Shown in pieces: positions 1 through 5,408 of a stretch of 5,503 nt of DNA (its first letter is position 1; each line of letters opens with the position of its first letter). The translations under genes were made by a program, and so were the position numbers. The stretch is from an uncultured bacterium (GTDB lineage Bacteria; CALINM01), in the NCBI GenBank assembly GCA_938045315.1, contig CALINM010000153.1, positions 1 to 5,503 of the forward strand, read 5' to 3'. The notes under the pieces were generated by a model. That model had not been told where the DNA came from, did no database searches, and saw only the letters and a list, made by a program, of their open reading frames with translations.

Positions 1-1584
1 TACTTGAGTGATATTTCGAGTTATTTTTATACCCTCTTTGTCTGTAATATATGCGAATTGTACAAAGGGATTTTCTTGCACAAAATTTCTGAGAGCTGCT
101 TCTTGCATATGAGGGTCCATAGATTTTATTTCTGGTAGTTCTACTAAATCCTGTATAAGATGAGATACCATCTCTTTTGCTTTAATTTTTATCTTATCAA
201 ATTCAGAGACAAAAAGCTCTGGTAAATATTTTCTGCATAATTTTTCCATTTCATCATCGGATATAGAAGTTGTTCTACCCTCATGATACTGCTTTTCAAT
301 CCATGAGTGAATTTTTAGTAAACTGGGATGTCTTTTATCAATTTTTTTATCACCCGTAAGTCCTAAACGCTGGTTAACCCAGTAAGCAACCCCTGCGACA
401 CCAGACTTATCAGTAATTGTGACTTTTATTGGTCTATTGAGTAATTTTTTTGTATCAAAAATATTATATATTTCCTCATTTTTTATAACACCATCAGCAT
501 GAATTCCCGCTGAAGTGGCATTAAAAGATTCTCCAATAAAAGGATAATTTGGTGGGATTTTAAACCCCAGTTCTTTTTCAAAGTAGTGAGCTAACTCAGT
601 TATTATCGTTGTATCAATTTCCTGTGACTCTCGGAGAGATAAATATTCAAAAATTAGTGCTTCGATTGGTGGGTTACCAGTTCTTTCACCAAATCCCAAT
701 AAACTACCATTTACTGCACTACATCCATATAACCAAGCACATACACCGTTCACTAAAGCTTTATGAAAATCATTATGTCCATGCCACTCTAGTTCTTCTG
801 ATGATATGCCGGTCTCTTCTTTAAGTAATTGTATCATTTGTGGGATTCCTCTGGGGATAGAAGCCTGGGGGAATGGTAATCCATAACCGAGGGTATCACA
901 TAATCTTATTTTTATATCAATTCCAGATTCTTCAGAAAGCTCCATGATTTTAATTACAAAGGGTATAACAAATCCATAAAAATCGGCCCTTGTGATATCT
1001 TCGAAATGACATCTTGGTTTAATTCCCAGTGACAAGGCTTCTTTAATAATTGATAAATAATTTTCAAGTGCTCTTTTTCTGTCCCAGCCTAACTTTAAAT
1101 AAATATGATAGTCTGATACGGATGTTAATATCCCCGTTTCTTTTATGCCAAATTCTTTTACTAATTTTAAATCTTCACTATTTGCACGAACCCATGCAGT
1201 TATTTCTGGATATTTAAAATCAAGTTCCATGCACTTTCTAACAGCTTCTTTATCTTTATCACTGTATAAAAAAAATTCAGATTGTCTAATTACTCCTAAA
1301 TTGCCTGATAATTTATGTAATAATGTAAAAATATCTACAATTTGTTTTACAGTATATGGTGGTCTTGCCTGTTGACCATCTCGAAATGTTGTATCAGTAA
1401 TAAATATATCTTCTGGTATGTCTAACAATGCAACATGATTGTTAAATATCTGTTTGCCCACACTAATATATGGAAAAATGTCTCTTAATAGATTAGGGTT
1501 TTCTGGATTGTCAAATTTAGCTAAAGGGCGTTTATTTGATCTGATACTTATGAAAGAATTTTTTTTAGAATCCCATTTAATCAC
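1..1584 (-). CDS. DRE-TIM carboxyltransferase, Re-citrate synthase / homocitrate synthase-like, with a C-terminal sensor-like extension; 3' truncated
   Basis: From a GTG start, 528 codons run open to the left edge, so the C-terminus is missing. The family condenses acetyl-CoA with a 2-oxoacid. DTTFRDGQQ (64-72) holds the metal-binding Asp and catalytic Arg region. HFEDITRAD (193-201), CDTLGYG (229-235), the metal-binding HGHND (268-272) and GFGERTGN (297-304) complete the TIM barrel. SAGIHADG (358-365) is the conserved His segment after it. The long N-terminus, PRGIP after the DTLGYG strand, and WHGHNDFHK followed by AWLYG resemble the Clostridium kluyveri Re-citrate synthase subgroup more than LeuA or NifV. 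That subgroup makes citrate from oxaloacetate with Re-face stereochemistry in anaerobes lacking GltA. Homocitrate, citramalate or isopropylmalate synthesis remains possible. Residues about 463-528 (NPFVQFAYITDKEG, then NITQ) resemble the first part of a PDC/Cache sensor, beyond the usual family length of about 450. No LeuA-type regulatory domain is visible in the part present. The gene follows the LysM stop by 1 nt. Confidence 0.85.
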   Translation of the reverse strand, partial: MIKWDSKKNSFISIRSNKRPLAKFDNPENPNLLRDIFPYISVGKQIFNNHVALLDIPEDIFITDTTFRDGQQARPPYTVKQIVDIFTLLHKLSGNLGVIRQSEFFLYSDKDKEAVRKCMELDFKYPEITAWVRANSEDLKLVKEFGIKETGILTSVSDYHIYLKLGWDRKRALENYLSIIKEALSLGIKPRCHFEDITRADFYGFVIPFVIKIMELSEESGIDIKIRLCDTLGYGLPFPQASIPRGIPQMIQLLKEETGISSEELEWHGHNDFHKALVNGVCAWLYGCSAVNGSLLGFGERTGNPPIEALIFEYLSLRESQEIDTTIITELAHYFEKELGFKIPPNYPFIGESFNATSAGIHADGVIKNEEIYNIFDTKKLLNRPIKVTITDKSGVAGVAYWVNQRLGLTGDKKIDKRHPSLLKIHSWIEKQYHEGRTTSISDDEMEKLCRKYLPELFVSEFDKIKIKAKEMVSHLIQDLVELPEIKSMDPHMQEAALRNFVQENPFVQFAYITDKEGIKITRNITQV

Positions 1585-1585
1585 C

Positions 1586-2380
1586 TTACTCCTCCAGTAA
1601 TAATTCATTTATCATTTGTTTATATTTATCAGGGGTATAAGCCCTTTTTGGTATATTTTTAGGAGTGGGTGCACCGGCTTCTTCTCTAGCTTTATAAATT
1701 TCGTCCATTGTAATATTTCTTGGTATCCTCAAAATTTGACCCCTATATAATTTTTTTGGGTTACTTATCTGGTCACGATTATATTTATAAATCAGTGGCC
1801 AGTAATACTTATCATTATAAATAAATGGTAATTCAGCAATCTTTTGTAAAGTGTCTTCATCTTTAACAGTATAAAAACTTGGCATTCTTTTTTCAATCTT
1901 ATATCTTATTTCTTCTAAAGTCTTTTTTGGTTTTGAAATACTTGCAATCTTTTTATACCCATCAAATTCGTTTTCCATGTTAATTTCACTCATTTTTAAC
2001 TCATTAGTAGTTTTTTCTTTTTCGTGAACATCAATTGATTCTTGTTTATGCTTTGCTTCTTCTATAATTATTTTTGCATGTTTTATCTTTTCTTCCTCTT
2101 CTTGCTTTTTTTTGTTAAGCTTTTCTTCTATTTGTGCAATCTTATAGTTTGTGTAATAATACAACCTGTAAGCCTCTTCTTTATTTTTAGCATATTCTAC
2201 TTCATCCAGCTTTTGCCATAATTCTTTTAGCAATAACCAGTCCTCAGGTAAATATCTTGGTAGATCAGCATAATATAGACCTTCTATTTCAAGTTTTGTT
2301 TTCGCTATCTCCTTTGAAGGGAAGGGAGCACAAGAAAAGAAAATGAAAAATATGCATAGTGATAATAGGATTTTTTTCAT
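1586..2380 (-). CDS. LysM-domain lipoprotein with central coiled coil
   Basis: This 264-residue protein is a predicted envelope lipoprotein. Residues 1-16 are a signal peptide (MKK, then a hydrophobic run) ending in FFSC. Cys17 is the likely lipidation site, although the lipobox is slightly degenerate, with Phe at -3 and -2. Residues 25-80 are helical and Tyr/Trp-rich (YLPEDW, then YRLYYYTNYKIAQIEEK), loosely like the DUF4398-type helical repeats of other envelope lipoproteins. Residues 80-125 are Lys/Glu-rich and probably a coiled coil. A single LysM domain at about 169-221 runs from FYTVKDEDTLQKIAE through WPLIYKYNRDQISNP to YRGQILRIP. LysM domains bind the GlcNAc-containing backbone of peptidoglycan, so the protein probably links a membrane to the cell wall. 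Its exact role is unknown. The ATG overlaps the aspS stop as ATGA, with AAGG just upstream. Confidence 0.9.
   Translation of the reverse strand: MKKILLSLCIFFIFFSCAPFPSKEIAKTKLEIEGLYYADLPRYLPEDWLLLKELWQKLDEVEYAKNKEEAYRLYYYTNYKIAQIEEKLNKKKQEEEEKIKHAKIIIEEAKHKQESIDVHEKEKTTNELKMSEINMENEFDGYKKIASISKPKKTLEEIRYKIEKRMPSFYTVKDEDTLQKIAELPFIYNDKYYWPLIYKYNRDQISNPKKLYRGQILRIPRNITMDEIYKAREEAGAPTPKNIPKRAYTPDKYKQMINELLLEE
1589..1595 (-). promoter_or_regulatory. Ribosome-binding site that decides the GTG start of the DRE-TIM gene
   Basis: The minus strand reads GGAGGAG, followed by TAAG and then GTG at 1584. It is formed by the last two Glu codons (GAG GAG) of the LysM gene just before its TAA. No in-frame ATG occurs near this point (the next Met is residue 119, inside the barrel), so this strong site supports GTG as the start codon. 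Confidence 0.85.
2377..2380 (-). other. ATGA stop/start overlap between aspS and the LysM lipoprotein gene
   Basis: The bases read ATGA on the minus strand. ATG starts the lipoprotein gene and TGA ends aspS. Such overlaps usually allow terminating ribosomes to restart, so lipoprotein synthesis is probably coupled to aspS translation. Only a weak AAGG lies upstream, 2 nt from the ATG, which fits dependence on coupling. Confidence 0.85.
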
Positions 2381-4164
2381 TGCCTTGGCAAAACCCTTTT
2401 TATATATAATTCCCTTAGCTGGTTTTCGTCAACAAATGAAGGTGCCTCTGTAAGTGGGCATGTGCCCTTTTGAGTTTTTGGAAAGGCAATTACATCTCTT
2501 ATTGAATCCCTTTTTAACATGAGGGCAATAAGTCTATCGAGTCCTAATGCAATTCCTCCGTGGGGAGGAGCTCCAAAGTTTAAAGCTTCTAGAAAAAATC
2601 CAAATTTACTTGTTGCATCTTCTTTGGAAAGACCAAGGATATCAAAAATTTTCTGTTGAAGTTTCATATTATATATTCTCAGGCTACCTCCACCAATCTC
2701 CGTACCATTCAAGACTATATCATAGGCTTTTGCTTTGACAGCGAGCGGATTTGAATCAAGTAATGCTATATCGGCATCATTTGGCATTGTAAAGGGGTGA
2801 TGAACAGATACAATACGATTTTCATCTTCATCATATTCAAATAAGGGGAAATTAGTCACCCACAATAACTGGAATGTATTTTCATCAAATAAGTTATATC
2901 TTTTACCCAAAAGAAGCCTTATTTTACCCAGAACAAAGAGGGTAATTTTCTTCTTATCGGCAACAAATATTAAAATATCACCGGTATTTGCGTTTAGTTT
3001 TTTTTCAATTGCTTTTTTTTCTTCTTCAGTAATGAATTTTGAAGCTGGGGACTGCCAGCCTTCAGGTTGTATTTTTACCCATAATAGTCCCTTAGCCCCC
3101 AGTTCTTTTGATGTCTCTACAAGTTCATCAAGATCCTTTCTTGAGAGGGGAAGATTTTTAAGATTTATACCAGATATGATCCCGCCTGCGTTGATTGTAT
3201 CGCTAAAAACTTTAAACTGTGAATTTTTAACACACTCAGTAATATCTTGAATTTTTAAATCGAAACGAATATCTGGTGCATCTGTCCCAAATTGGCTCAT
3301 CGCATCATCATAACTTATTACAGTTAGCGGTGTTTTTATTTGTATGTCAAGCAGTTCATAAAAAAGCTTTGACAGCATATTTTCTATAAGATTCATTATA
3401 TCTACCTCATTGATAAAAGACATTTCTATATCAACCTGTGTAAACTCTGGTTGTCTGTCAGCTCTTAAGTCTTCGTCTCTAAAACATCTAACGATTTGAT
3501 AGTATTTATCAACTCCGCCTACCATAAGAATTTGTTTAAAGAGTTGAGGTGATTGAGGCAAGGCAAAAAAACAACCGGGATTTAATCTACTTGGTACCAG
3601 GAAATCTCGTGCACCCTCAGGTGTGCTCTTAGTAAGCATTGGTGTTTCTATCTCAAGAAAACCTTCCTCATTTAAATATTCTCTTATTAATCTTGTTGCT
3701 CTATGACGAAAAATTAGACTTTCCTTCATTTTGTCACTTCTCATATCAAGATATCTATATTTCATCCTGATTGATTCCGATACTTTCTGTAACTCCTGAG
3801 CTTCTAAAGAGAAAGGTAGAGGTTGTGATTCGCTGAGTATTTTTAGTTCTTTAACTAATACTTCAATCTCACCAGTTTTTAAGTCTGGATTTTCTGTGCC
3901 TTCAGGTCTTCTTCTTATCAAACCTTTCACTGCTATAACATATTCAAGTCTTATACTTTCTGCTTTTTCATGGGATATCCTGTCATAGGTTGGATCAAAA
4001 ACAATTTGAATAATACCTTGTCTATCTCTTAGATCGATAAAAATAATTCCACCATGATCCCTTCTTCTGAAAACCCAACCTGTCAAAATAACCTCTTTTC
4101 CCACATCTTCCTTCGAAAAATTTCCACAGTAATTTGTTCTTTTCCAGCTGCCAAGAAAATCCAT
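2377..4164 (-). CDS. aspS: Aspartyl-tRNA synthetase, bacterial type, probably non-discriminating (Asp/Asn)
   Basis: This 595-residue class IIb synthetase has the usual bacterial length and is complete. It charges tRNA-Asp with aspartate. The N-terminal OB-fold anticodon-binding domain covers about 8-110 (GWVFRRRDHGG, FIDLRDRQGI). Class II motif 1 is around 171-193 (ETPMLTKSTPEGARDF). Motif 2 is FRDEDLRADRQPEFTQVD (228-245) and motif 3 is GIALGLDRL (537-545). The bacteria-specific GAD insertion lies at roughly 295-425. His37 in RRRDHGG and Gly89 in RPEGTEN align with Pseudomonas aeruginosa His31 and Gly82. Those residues are implicated in accepting tRNA-Asn, whereas E. coli has Leu and Lys there. 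The enzyme may therefore also make Asp-tRNA-Asn for GatCAB. The ATG lies 2 nt after the hisS stop, with AAGGAGAT at 4178-4171 inside hisS as a strong ribosome-binding site. The 3' end overlaps the next gene by 4 nt. Confidence 0.98.
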   Translation of the reverse strand: MDFLGSWKRTNYCGNFSKEDVGKEVILTGWVFRRRDHGGIIFIDLRDRQGIIQIVFDPTYDRISHEKAESIRLEYVIAVKGLIRRRPEGTENPDLKTGEIEVLVKELKILSESQPLPFSLEAQELQKVSESIRMKYRYLDMRSDKMKESLIFRHRATRLIREYLNEEGFLEIETPMLTKSTPEGARDFLVPSRLNPGCFFALPQSPQLFKQILMVGGVDKYYQIVRCFRDEDLRADRQPEFTQVDIEMSFINEVDIMNLIENMLSKLFYELLDIQIKTPLTVISYDDAMSQFGTDAPDIRFDLKIQDITECVKNSQFKVFSDTINAGGIISGINLKNLPLSRKDLDELVETSKELGAKGLLWVKIQPEGWQSPASKFITEEEKKAIEKKLNANTGDILIFVADKKKITLFVLGKIRLLLGKRYNLFDENTFQLLWVTNFPLFEYDEDENRIVSVHHPFTMPNDADIALLDSNPLAVKAKAYDIVLNGTEIGGGSLRIYNMKLQQKIFDILGLSKEDATSKFGFFLEALNFGAPPHGGIALGLDRLIALMLKRDSIRDVIAFPKTQKGTCPLTEAPSFVDENQLRELYIKRVLPRQ

Positions 4165-4166
4165 TT

Positions 4167-5408
4167 TTAAATCTCCTTCTCCAAGTTTTCTAATTTATCA
4201 AGTGGTAAGGCAAATTGTTCACCCTTTTCCATATTTTTGAGGGTAAAAGTACCATTATTAATTTCATTATCACCTAATATAACTACATATTTACTTTTCA
4301 GTTTATCAGCTTTTCTAAGTTTACTTTTTAAGCTACTTTTTGATGGGTCATAGGATACTTTAACCCCTTTTTTTCTTAGATTATTTATAAGGGGTAAAAT
4401 AATTTTTTCTCCTCTGTCGTCAAAGTATATAAAAAAGAAATCTAAAGAATCATCTTCAACAAAAGTTTCATCTAAAAGTAAAACAACTCTTTCCAAACCC
4501 ATAGCCCACCCCACAGCAGGTAAATCATATCCACCAAGGTCTTTTGAAAGATTGTCGTATCTACCTCCAGCGAGTATAGCACTTTGAGATCCAAGTCCCT
4601 TTGCGTGAACTTCGAAAACAGTTTTAATATAATAATCAAGACCCCTAACGATAAAGGGATCTATTTCGTAAGAAATATTATTGAGAGTCAATAATTCTTT
4701 TAATTTGGTCATGTGTTTTTTGCAATCCACACAAATAAAATCAAGTATTTTAGGAGCACTTTTAATTATTTCTTTGCATTTTTCCTGTTTGCAGTCAAGA
4801 ATCCTTAAAGGGTTTGTTATTTTTCTTCTATTACAATCTTCGCAAAGATCTTGATTATTTTCTAAATATTTGAGCAAAGAATTTCTATAAGTTTTCCTGC
4901 AATCTGGACATCCAAGATTATTTATGTATAATATTCTATCTTTAATACCAACTTTTTCCAAAAGACAATCCATTAAAGATAAAACCTCAAATTCTGCATA
5001 GGGAGTTAAATCTCCTAAAAACTCAACCCCAGCCTGGTGAAATTGTCTTAATCTGCCCTTTTGTGGTCTTTCATATCGAAACATAGGGCCTAAATAGTAA
5101 AGCTTTAAGTTCTTTTCCAATGTATATAACTTGTGCTCATTTATAAATCTAATTACAGATGCTGTACCTTCAGGACGCATTGTAACAGATTCGTTGCCTT
5201 TGTCTATAAATGTATACATCTCTTTTTCTACAATATCTGTAGTGTCGCCGATGCTTCTTTGGAAAAGTTCAGTTTTTTCAAGTATTGGGAGCCTTACTTC
5301 TTCAAAACCCCATGTTGAAAACACCTCTCTTATTATATTTTCTAATTTTTTCCATATTTTAGCTTCTTTACCATAAATGTCTTTAAAGCCCCTTACTGAT
5401 GTAATCAT
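4167..5408 (-). CDS. hisS: Histidyl-tRNA synthetase (HisRS)
   Basis: This is a class II aminoacyl-tRNA synthetase of 413 residues, close to the usual bacterial length of about 420. It joins histidine to tRNA-His using ATP in the cytoplasm. The N-terminus SVRGFKDIYG is the typical start region. MRPEGTA (77-83) and the motif 2 block from FRYERPQKGR to FHQ (110-124) bind ATP and the acceptor end. The HisRS-specific histidine A motif RGLDYYIKTVFE (255-266) and GGRYD (281-285) are intact. Motif 3 is VGWAMGLERVVLL (299-311). The anticodon-binding alpha/beta domain spans about 322-409. Between the two catalytic halves is an insertion with eight cysteines in pairs (167/170, 189/192, 206/211, 226/229), as seen in a subset of bacterial HisRS. 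The ATG at 5408 is preceded by AAGGAT at 5420-5415 with 6 nt spacing. No T-box leader fits here, because a coding sequence ends 4 nt upstream. Confidence 0.98.
   Translation of the reverse strand: MITSVRGFKDIYGKEAKIWKKLENIIREVFSTWGFEEVRLPILEKTELFQRSIGDTTDIVEKEMYTFIDKGNESVTMRPEGTASVIRFINEHKLYTLEKNLKLYYLGPMFRYERPQKGRLRQFHQAGVEFLGDLTPYAEFEVLSLMDCLLEKVGIKDRILYINNLGCPDCRKTYRNSLLKYLENNQDLCEDCNRRKITNPLRILDCKQEKCKEIIKSAPKILDFICVDCKKHMTKLKELLTLNNISYEIDPFIVRGLDYYIKTVFEVHAKGLGSQSAILAGGRYDNLSKDLGGYDLPAVGWAMGLERVVLLLDETFVEDDSLDFFFIYFDDRGEKIILPLINNLRKKGVKVSYDPSKSSLKSKLRKADKLKSKYVVILGDNEINNGTFTLKNMEKGEQFALPLDKLENLEKEI

Follow-up and report, generated by a model that had tools for sequence, protein, structure and literature searches.

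Re-citrate synthases of the Clostridium kluyveri type, like the enzyme of Syntrophus aciditrophicus, share their barrel type and expected role with the enzyme described here. Clostridium-type enzymes are about 50 kDa in size and, unlike the fused enzyme, carry no Cache domain; the Syntrophus enzyme, reportedly purified by Kim and colleagues in 2013, is said to have a subunit of about 72.9 kDa. In the same enzyme superfamily, isopropylmalate synthase bears a LeuA_dimer domain and homocitrate synthase a RAM-type domain, which are C-terminal regulatory modules for end-product control by leucine and lysine, respectively, but whose folds are unrelated to Cache. In the sensors KinD, Tlp3, PctA and WalK, in contrast to the single soluble Cache domain joined to a metabolic enzyme that is reported here, the Cache domains are extracytoplasmic parts of membrane receptors, although the fold and several pocket residues are held in common. 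Cache families are principally extracellular, the intracellular exceptions being YkuI_C and Diacid_rec, and the outputs reported for them, SMP_2 excepted, are domains of signal transduction (PMC4822843). A parallel in architecture is YkuI, an EAL protein of B. subtilis, which is likewise soluble and carries a C-terminal intracellular Cache domain (YkuI_C) behind a barrel-type enzyme domain; however, YkuI is a c-di-GMP signalling protein, whereas the fused enzyme belongs to central carbon metabolism. To our knowledge, no sensor domain has been reported on a Re-citrate synthase. A paper on a Cache-bearing citrate or homocitrate synthase was not found in the open-licence literature; such architectures are probably already listed in domain databases.

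A synthase barrel and a Cache domain in one reading frame

The window, that is the entire stretch of 5,503 nucleotides analysed here, corresponds to the whole contig C153 of its source genome. A minus-strand frame of 536 codons (1608..1) is open at base 1, the contig end. Its probable start is the GTG at 1584, which matches the GTG starts of the complete orthologues L004 (same genus, 605 aa) and L005 (same family, 606 aa); the gene for the Re-citrate-synthase-type enzyme with C-terminal Cache domain (1..1584, minus strand) is thus incomplete, comprising 528 of about 605 codons. The encoded protein is 93% identical to L004 (L004:1504-3321).

Residues 69-340 of the 536-codon frame form an HMGL-like DRE-TIM catalytic barrel (589..1404, minus strand; PF00682, E 2.8e-32) with the TTFRDGQQ and HxH metal motifs that characterize Re-citrate synthases. 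In the substrate/metal motif DTTFRDGQQ (1369..1395, minus strand), T65, T66, R68, D69, G70, Q71 and Q72 are near-invariant among aligned fused and unfused homologues, as are E266 to D272 of the metal-binding motif EWHGHND (769..789, minus strand). The barrel was previously taken to extend to about residue 450, but it ends near residue 340 and a C-terminal synthase subdomain then reaches about 450 (HCS_D2-like; 235..588, minus strand; weak PF22617 match, E 0.003), soon after which unfused relatives end. In the full-length model of L066 (pLDDT 89.5; pTM 0.74, by which alone the domain orientation is judged), the barrel matches structures of homocitrate synthase and isopropylmalate synthase best (Z 30-34).

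The remainder of the frame (1..216, minus strand) encodes about the first 72 residues of a Cache/PDC domain, namely its N-terminal half with a long helix, a second helix and the first strand; its aligned counterpart in L004, residues 457-528, overlaps the region matched by MCP-like_PDC_1 and dCache_1. The earlier note had proposed from the stretches KIKIKAKEMVSHLIQDL and QEAALRNFVQENPFVQFAYITD-KEGIKITRNITQ that the enzyme is fused to such a module. Both stretches indeed lie in a single frame, QEAALRNFVQENPFVQFAYITD and KEGIKITRNITQ being contiguous, and the synthase frame enters the Cache domain without a stop. In relatives the extension has a PDC/Cache fold with a DR-x-WF motif, an assignment borne out by profiles, by similarity to the sensor domains of KinD, Tlp3 and PctA and by the predicted fold. 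Pfam MCP-like_PDC_1 matches L004 and L005 with E 1.5e-16 and 4.4e-17, dCache_1 exceeds its cut-off in both and YkuI_C does so in L004; among 52 diverse fused proteins, HMGL-like and MCP-like_PDC_1 were both matched in all 52 and dCache_1 in 51. A profile search of solved structures returned Tlp3 (2e-11), KinD (3e-10), PctA (2e-7) and YkuI (5e-4). The AlphaFold2 model of the L066 Cache part (pLDDT 84.7, pTM 0.80) retrieved the KinD sensor first in Foldseek (E 1.4e-9), followed by Tlp3, YkuI (2bas/2w27) and WalK, and VIA-align gave Z scores of 16 for WalK, 16 for KinD and 14 for CitA.

The fused proteins depart from the usual extracytoplasmic placement of Cache domains between membrane helices. 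As previously suggested, they lack a membrane segment: none of 93 contains a 19-residue stretch above KD 1.7, and membrane anchoring was therefore rejected. A LeuA_dimer-type regulatory domain was likewise dismissed as the identity of the extension, since PF08502 matched neither the window protein nor L004, L005 or the 52 diverse members. Cache might replace the LeuA-type domain, as was further proposed, but could equally be an addition, since unfused relatives simply end. One fused protein (L006:1354-3555, genome G037) continues beyond Cache into a C-terminal tail that is long, basic and repetitive (ERRSGTERRSVKQ...).

The part of the gene that is absent from the window could be traced. The frame does not stop just left of base 1; that of L004 continues for 77 residues, including DREWF...GVIGLDIKF, so that the continuation anticipated by the earlier note exists, but about 77 residues are missing rather than the expected 100-150. 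The last 46 residues of the window's protein (VTDLYTSKITGALCVTVSAPIRNEKEEIVGVIGLDIKFDYLAKTEE) begin contig C151 of the same genome (G000:C151:2-142), where the isocitrate dehydrogenase (IDH) gene follows next, as in L004. Alignment with L004 leaves an unassembled gap of about 31 codons (~93 nt) between C153 and C151, which spans the DR-x-WF motif; for the window's own gene this motif is accordingly inferred from relatives. That the gene is cut by the window end might suggest a chimeric assembly or a neighbouring gene with a frameshift. However, many independent genomes, including isolates and long contigs, show the identical joined frame, which reduces this explanation to a negligible one, and we regard it as ruled out.

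Enzyme type and distribution of the fusion

Predicted Re-citrate synthase is the best assignment for the catalytic part. Against the NCBIfam equivalog models of homocitrate synthase, isopropylmalate synthase and citramalate synthase, the window protein scores far below every cut-off; the best named model, homocitrate synthase, gives 144 bits where 463 are required. Two further DRE-TIM synthase-like genes, on contigs C59 and C65, are isopropylmalate synthase- or citramalate synthase-like, and both aconitase and IDH were detected in the genome. Si-citrate synthase was not found in this genome (G000) or in the two closest ones (G001, G002), in a search whose positive controls scored in 13 of 14 genomes; as the window's genome is 92% complete, this absence is not proof, yet three related genomes concur. 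With no Si-citrate synthase detected, the fused enzyme is the only candidate citrate synthase of the genome. Pfam and NCBIfam assign the wider family only, and with homocitrate synthase as the top named model the protein might be another DRE-TIM synthase, acting on homocitrate, citramalate or isopropylmalate formation. The low equivalog scores, the separate synthase-like genes and the lack of a detected Si-citrate synthase next to aconitase and a directly downstream IDH make this highly improbable, and the same IDH neighbour, missing Si-citrate synthase and separate genes support the prediction of a Re-citrate synthase.

Close homologues occur in 30 of 386 genomes sampled domain-wide, 16 of them fused and 14 unfused; genome G259 carries a fused homologue plus a separate unfused one. 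Within a single-phylum sample of 247 genomes, 117 contain a homologue. The fused form accounts for about 112 of these; in three the frame stops at 455-489 codons, and two are partial matches. The best 80 named loci are nearly all fused, although many of these records are metagenome-assembled genomes and the scan, run with a fused query, is biased toward sequences close to it. Exceptions among them are the unfused L142 (Paenibacillus), L132 and L130, both truncated at contig ends, and L116, whose frame is broken as extracted. Named fused loci belong to Desulfobacterota including Desulfovibrionaceae, Nitrospirota, Spirochaetota, Omnitrophota, Elusimicrobiota, Lentisphaerota and others. A search of a plasmid collection yielded only distant Deinococcus homologues, in which the enzyme part alone was covered. 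Fusion, fold, conservation and wide spread of the Cache-bearing enzyme are established by these computations.

In about 90 fused homologues the fusion is one continuous frame, and unfused homologues end at about 447-481 aa. Since both forms occur, the barrel evidently folds without the need of Cache. Calculated masses are 70-74 kDa for fused Syntrophales-type proteins and 50-52 kDa for unfused homologues. The former agree with the mass reported for the Syntrophus subunit, which means that this enzyme probably bears Cache already and that the protein family may be known, with its sensor domain unremarked. In a tree of the catalytic domain, unfused members are scattered among fused ones with weak support. 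Parsimony on this tree counts eight fused/unfused changes, again with poor support, and the starred branches force only two of them. With such support, a single gain followed by losses and repeated gain are equally compatible with the data.

The Cache pocket and its candidate ligands

Conservation was ranked over 91 full-length members and 147 Cache positions, using L004 numbering. Trp548 and Ser566 are invariant (91/91; ranks 2 and 3), followed by Asp594 (90/91; rank 5), Phe549 (87/91), Arg546 (86/91; rank 11) and Tyr564 (74/91, plus 15 with Phe; rank 20). R546, W548, F549, Y564 and D594 align with PctA R126, W128, Y129, Y144 and D173. In PctA, R126 bonds the ligand carboxylate, W128 and Y144 are favourably placed for ligand binding, Y129 is structural and D173, a key position in the amino-acid motif, is conserved in amine receptors too (PMC10104139). 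The dCache_1AA motif Y...RxWY...Y...D of double Cache domains is only partly present: R, W, Y and D are largely kept, but the first Tyr is unconserved (position 541, equivalent to PctA Y121, ranks 136 of 147), RxWY has become RxWF and the Cache domain is single. Arg546 is absent from five of the 91 members, four of which (Spirochaetota/Lentisphaerota) carry His or Lys and the fifth Ser. Owing to the variable Y121 position, the exchange of Tyr129 for Phe and the missing Arg in five members, the amino-acid motif is incomplete. The pocket is nonetheless constrained, and its residues fit a small carboxylate or an amino acid.

We therefore consider it probable that the protein is a cytoplasmic Re-citrate synthase in which a single C-terminal Cache domain serves as a ligand-binding module tuning the enzyme. 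The synthase would form citrate from acetyl-CoA and oxaloacetate in the cytoplasm, and a small carboxylate metabolite, possibly an amino acid, would bind to the pocket of Arg546, Trp548, Tyr564 and Asp594. The signal may travel via the long N-terminal Cache helix, located just past the synthase C-terminal subdomain and a short linker, so as to raise or lower synthase activity or to alter the oligomeric state. In the L066 model this helix (residues 457-477) comes after the last synthase helix (439-449) via a short linker, which makes it a plausible coupling route. A point against a regulatory role is that unfused Re-citrate-synthase-like proteins do without Cache. Conceivably, a ligand-free Cache domain merely assembles or stabilizes the enzyme as a dimerization or tetramerization scaffold, as dimerization is frequent in sensor Cache and PAS domains and sequence variation is greater in Cache than in the barrel (mean entropy 1.90 versus 1.07). 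This appears unlikely, however, because the most conserved Cache residues include R546, W548 and D594, which correspond to the lining of the PctA-type pocket and would be needless for a scaffold.

For a ligand-binding, regulatory Cache domain, the simplest candidate signal would be the end product of the branch leading from citrate via 2-oxoglutarate to glutamate. Glutamate itself is a guess, made by analogy with leucine and isopropylmalate synthase and with lysine and homocitrate synthase. Alternatively, the ligand could be a keto or tricarboxylic acid that carries no amino group, such as pyruvate, 2-oxoglutarate or citrate; the nearest structural relatives include the KinD sensor, known from a pyruvate-bound structure, and CitA, which binds citrate, and the amino-acid motif lacks its Tyr121. 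Presence of Asp594 in 90 of 91 members, equivalent to PctA Asp173 that is kept in amine sensors too (PMC10104139), speaks against such a ligand, as does the sequence alignment, in which KinD has no Asp at this position; we thus rate it a possibility of somewhat less than even weight. Tentatively, a chemoreceptor-type Cache domain may have been co-opted early in anaerobes as an intracellular allosteric sensor directly setting the activity of the enzyme at the entry to the TCA branch, mediating feedback by an amino acid (such as glutamate) or a related carboxylate; its later history across many phyla may comprise inheritance, loss and perhaps retuning. Judged from the sequences, the Cache-bearing enzyme suggests built-in feedback control of central carbon metabolism. 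If true, a receptor module would exert direct metabolite control of carbon flux in a wide range of anaerobes, sulfate reducers and syntrophs among them. A conserved Cache domain on the citrate-forming enzyme provides a concrete, testable hypothesis for the regulation of citrate and glutamate formation in these organisms.

Gene neighbourhood

Directly upstream of the fused gene, the window encodes a putative lipoprotein with a LysM domain (1586..2380, minus strand; PF01476, E 2.2e-5), an order that is kept in L004 and L005. It is preceded by the genes for aspartyl-tRNA synthetase (2377..4164, minus strand) and histidyl-tRNA synthetase (4167..5408, minus strand), both named by reading of their sequences and recovered by neighbour clustering. 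The resulting order is hisS-aspS-LysM lipoprotein-Re-citrate synthase, with the upstream part at 1586-5408 and the LysM gene intervening between AspRS and the fused gene. According to neighbour clustering, about 30 named loci have AspRS immediately upstream of the fused gene, and about 18 have HisRS two genes upstream. The adjoining of AspRS in about 30 distant loci represents a conserved link between a tRNA synthetase and a citrate synthase, whose rationale is not obvious. Downstream, clustering recovered aconitase-like genes in 12 named loci and IDH in 11. Of 89 fused loci with sufficient flanking sequence, 20 have IDH directly downstream (duplicate loci counted; one IDH type searched); IDH is thus not a universal neighbour. 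On C151, the opposite strand after IDH encodes an NrfD-like membrane protein, an iron-sulfur protein resembling ferredoxins and a c-type cytochrome bearing CxxCH motifs (L177:1923-4615), a cluster that, as read without profiles, suggests an anaerobic respiratory complex.
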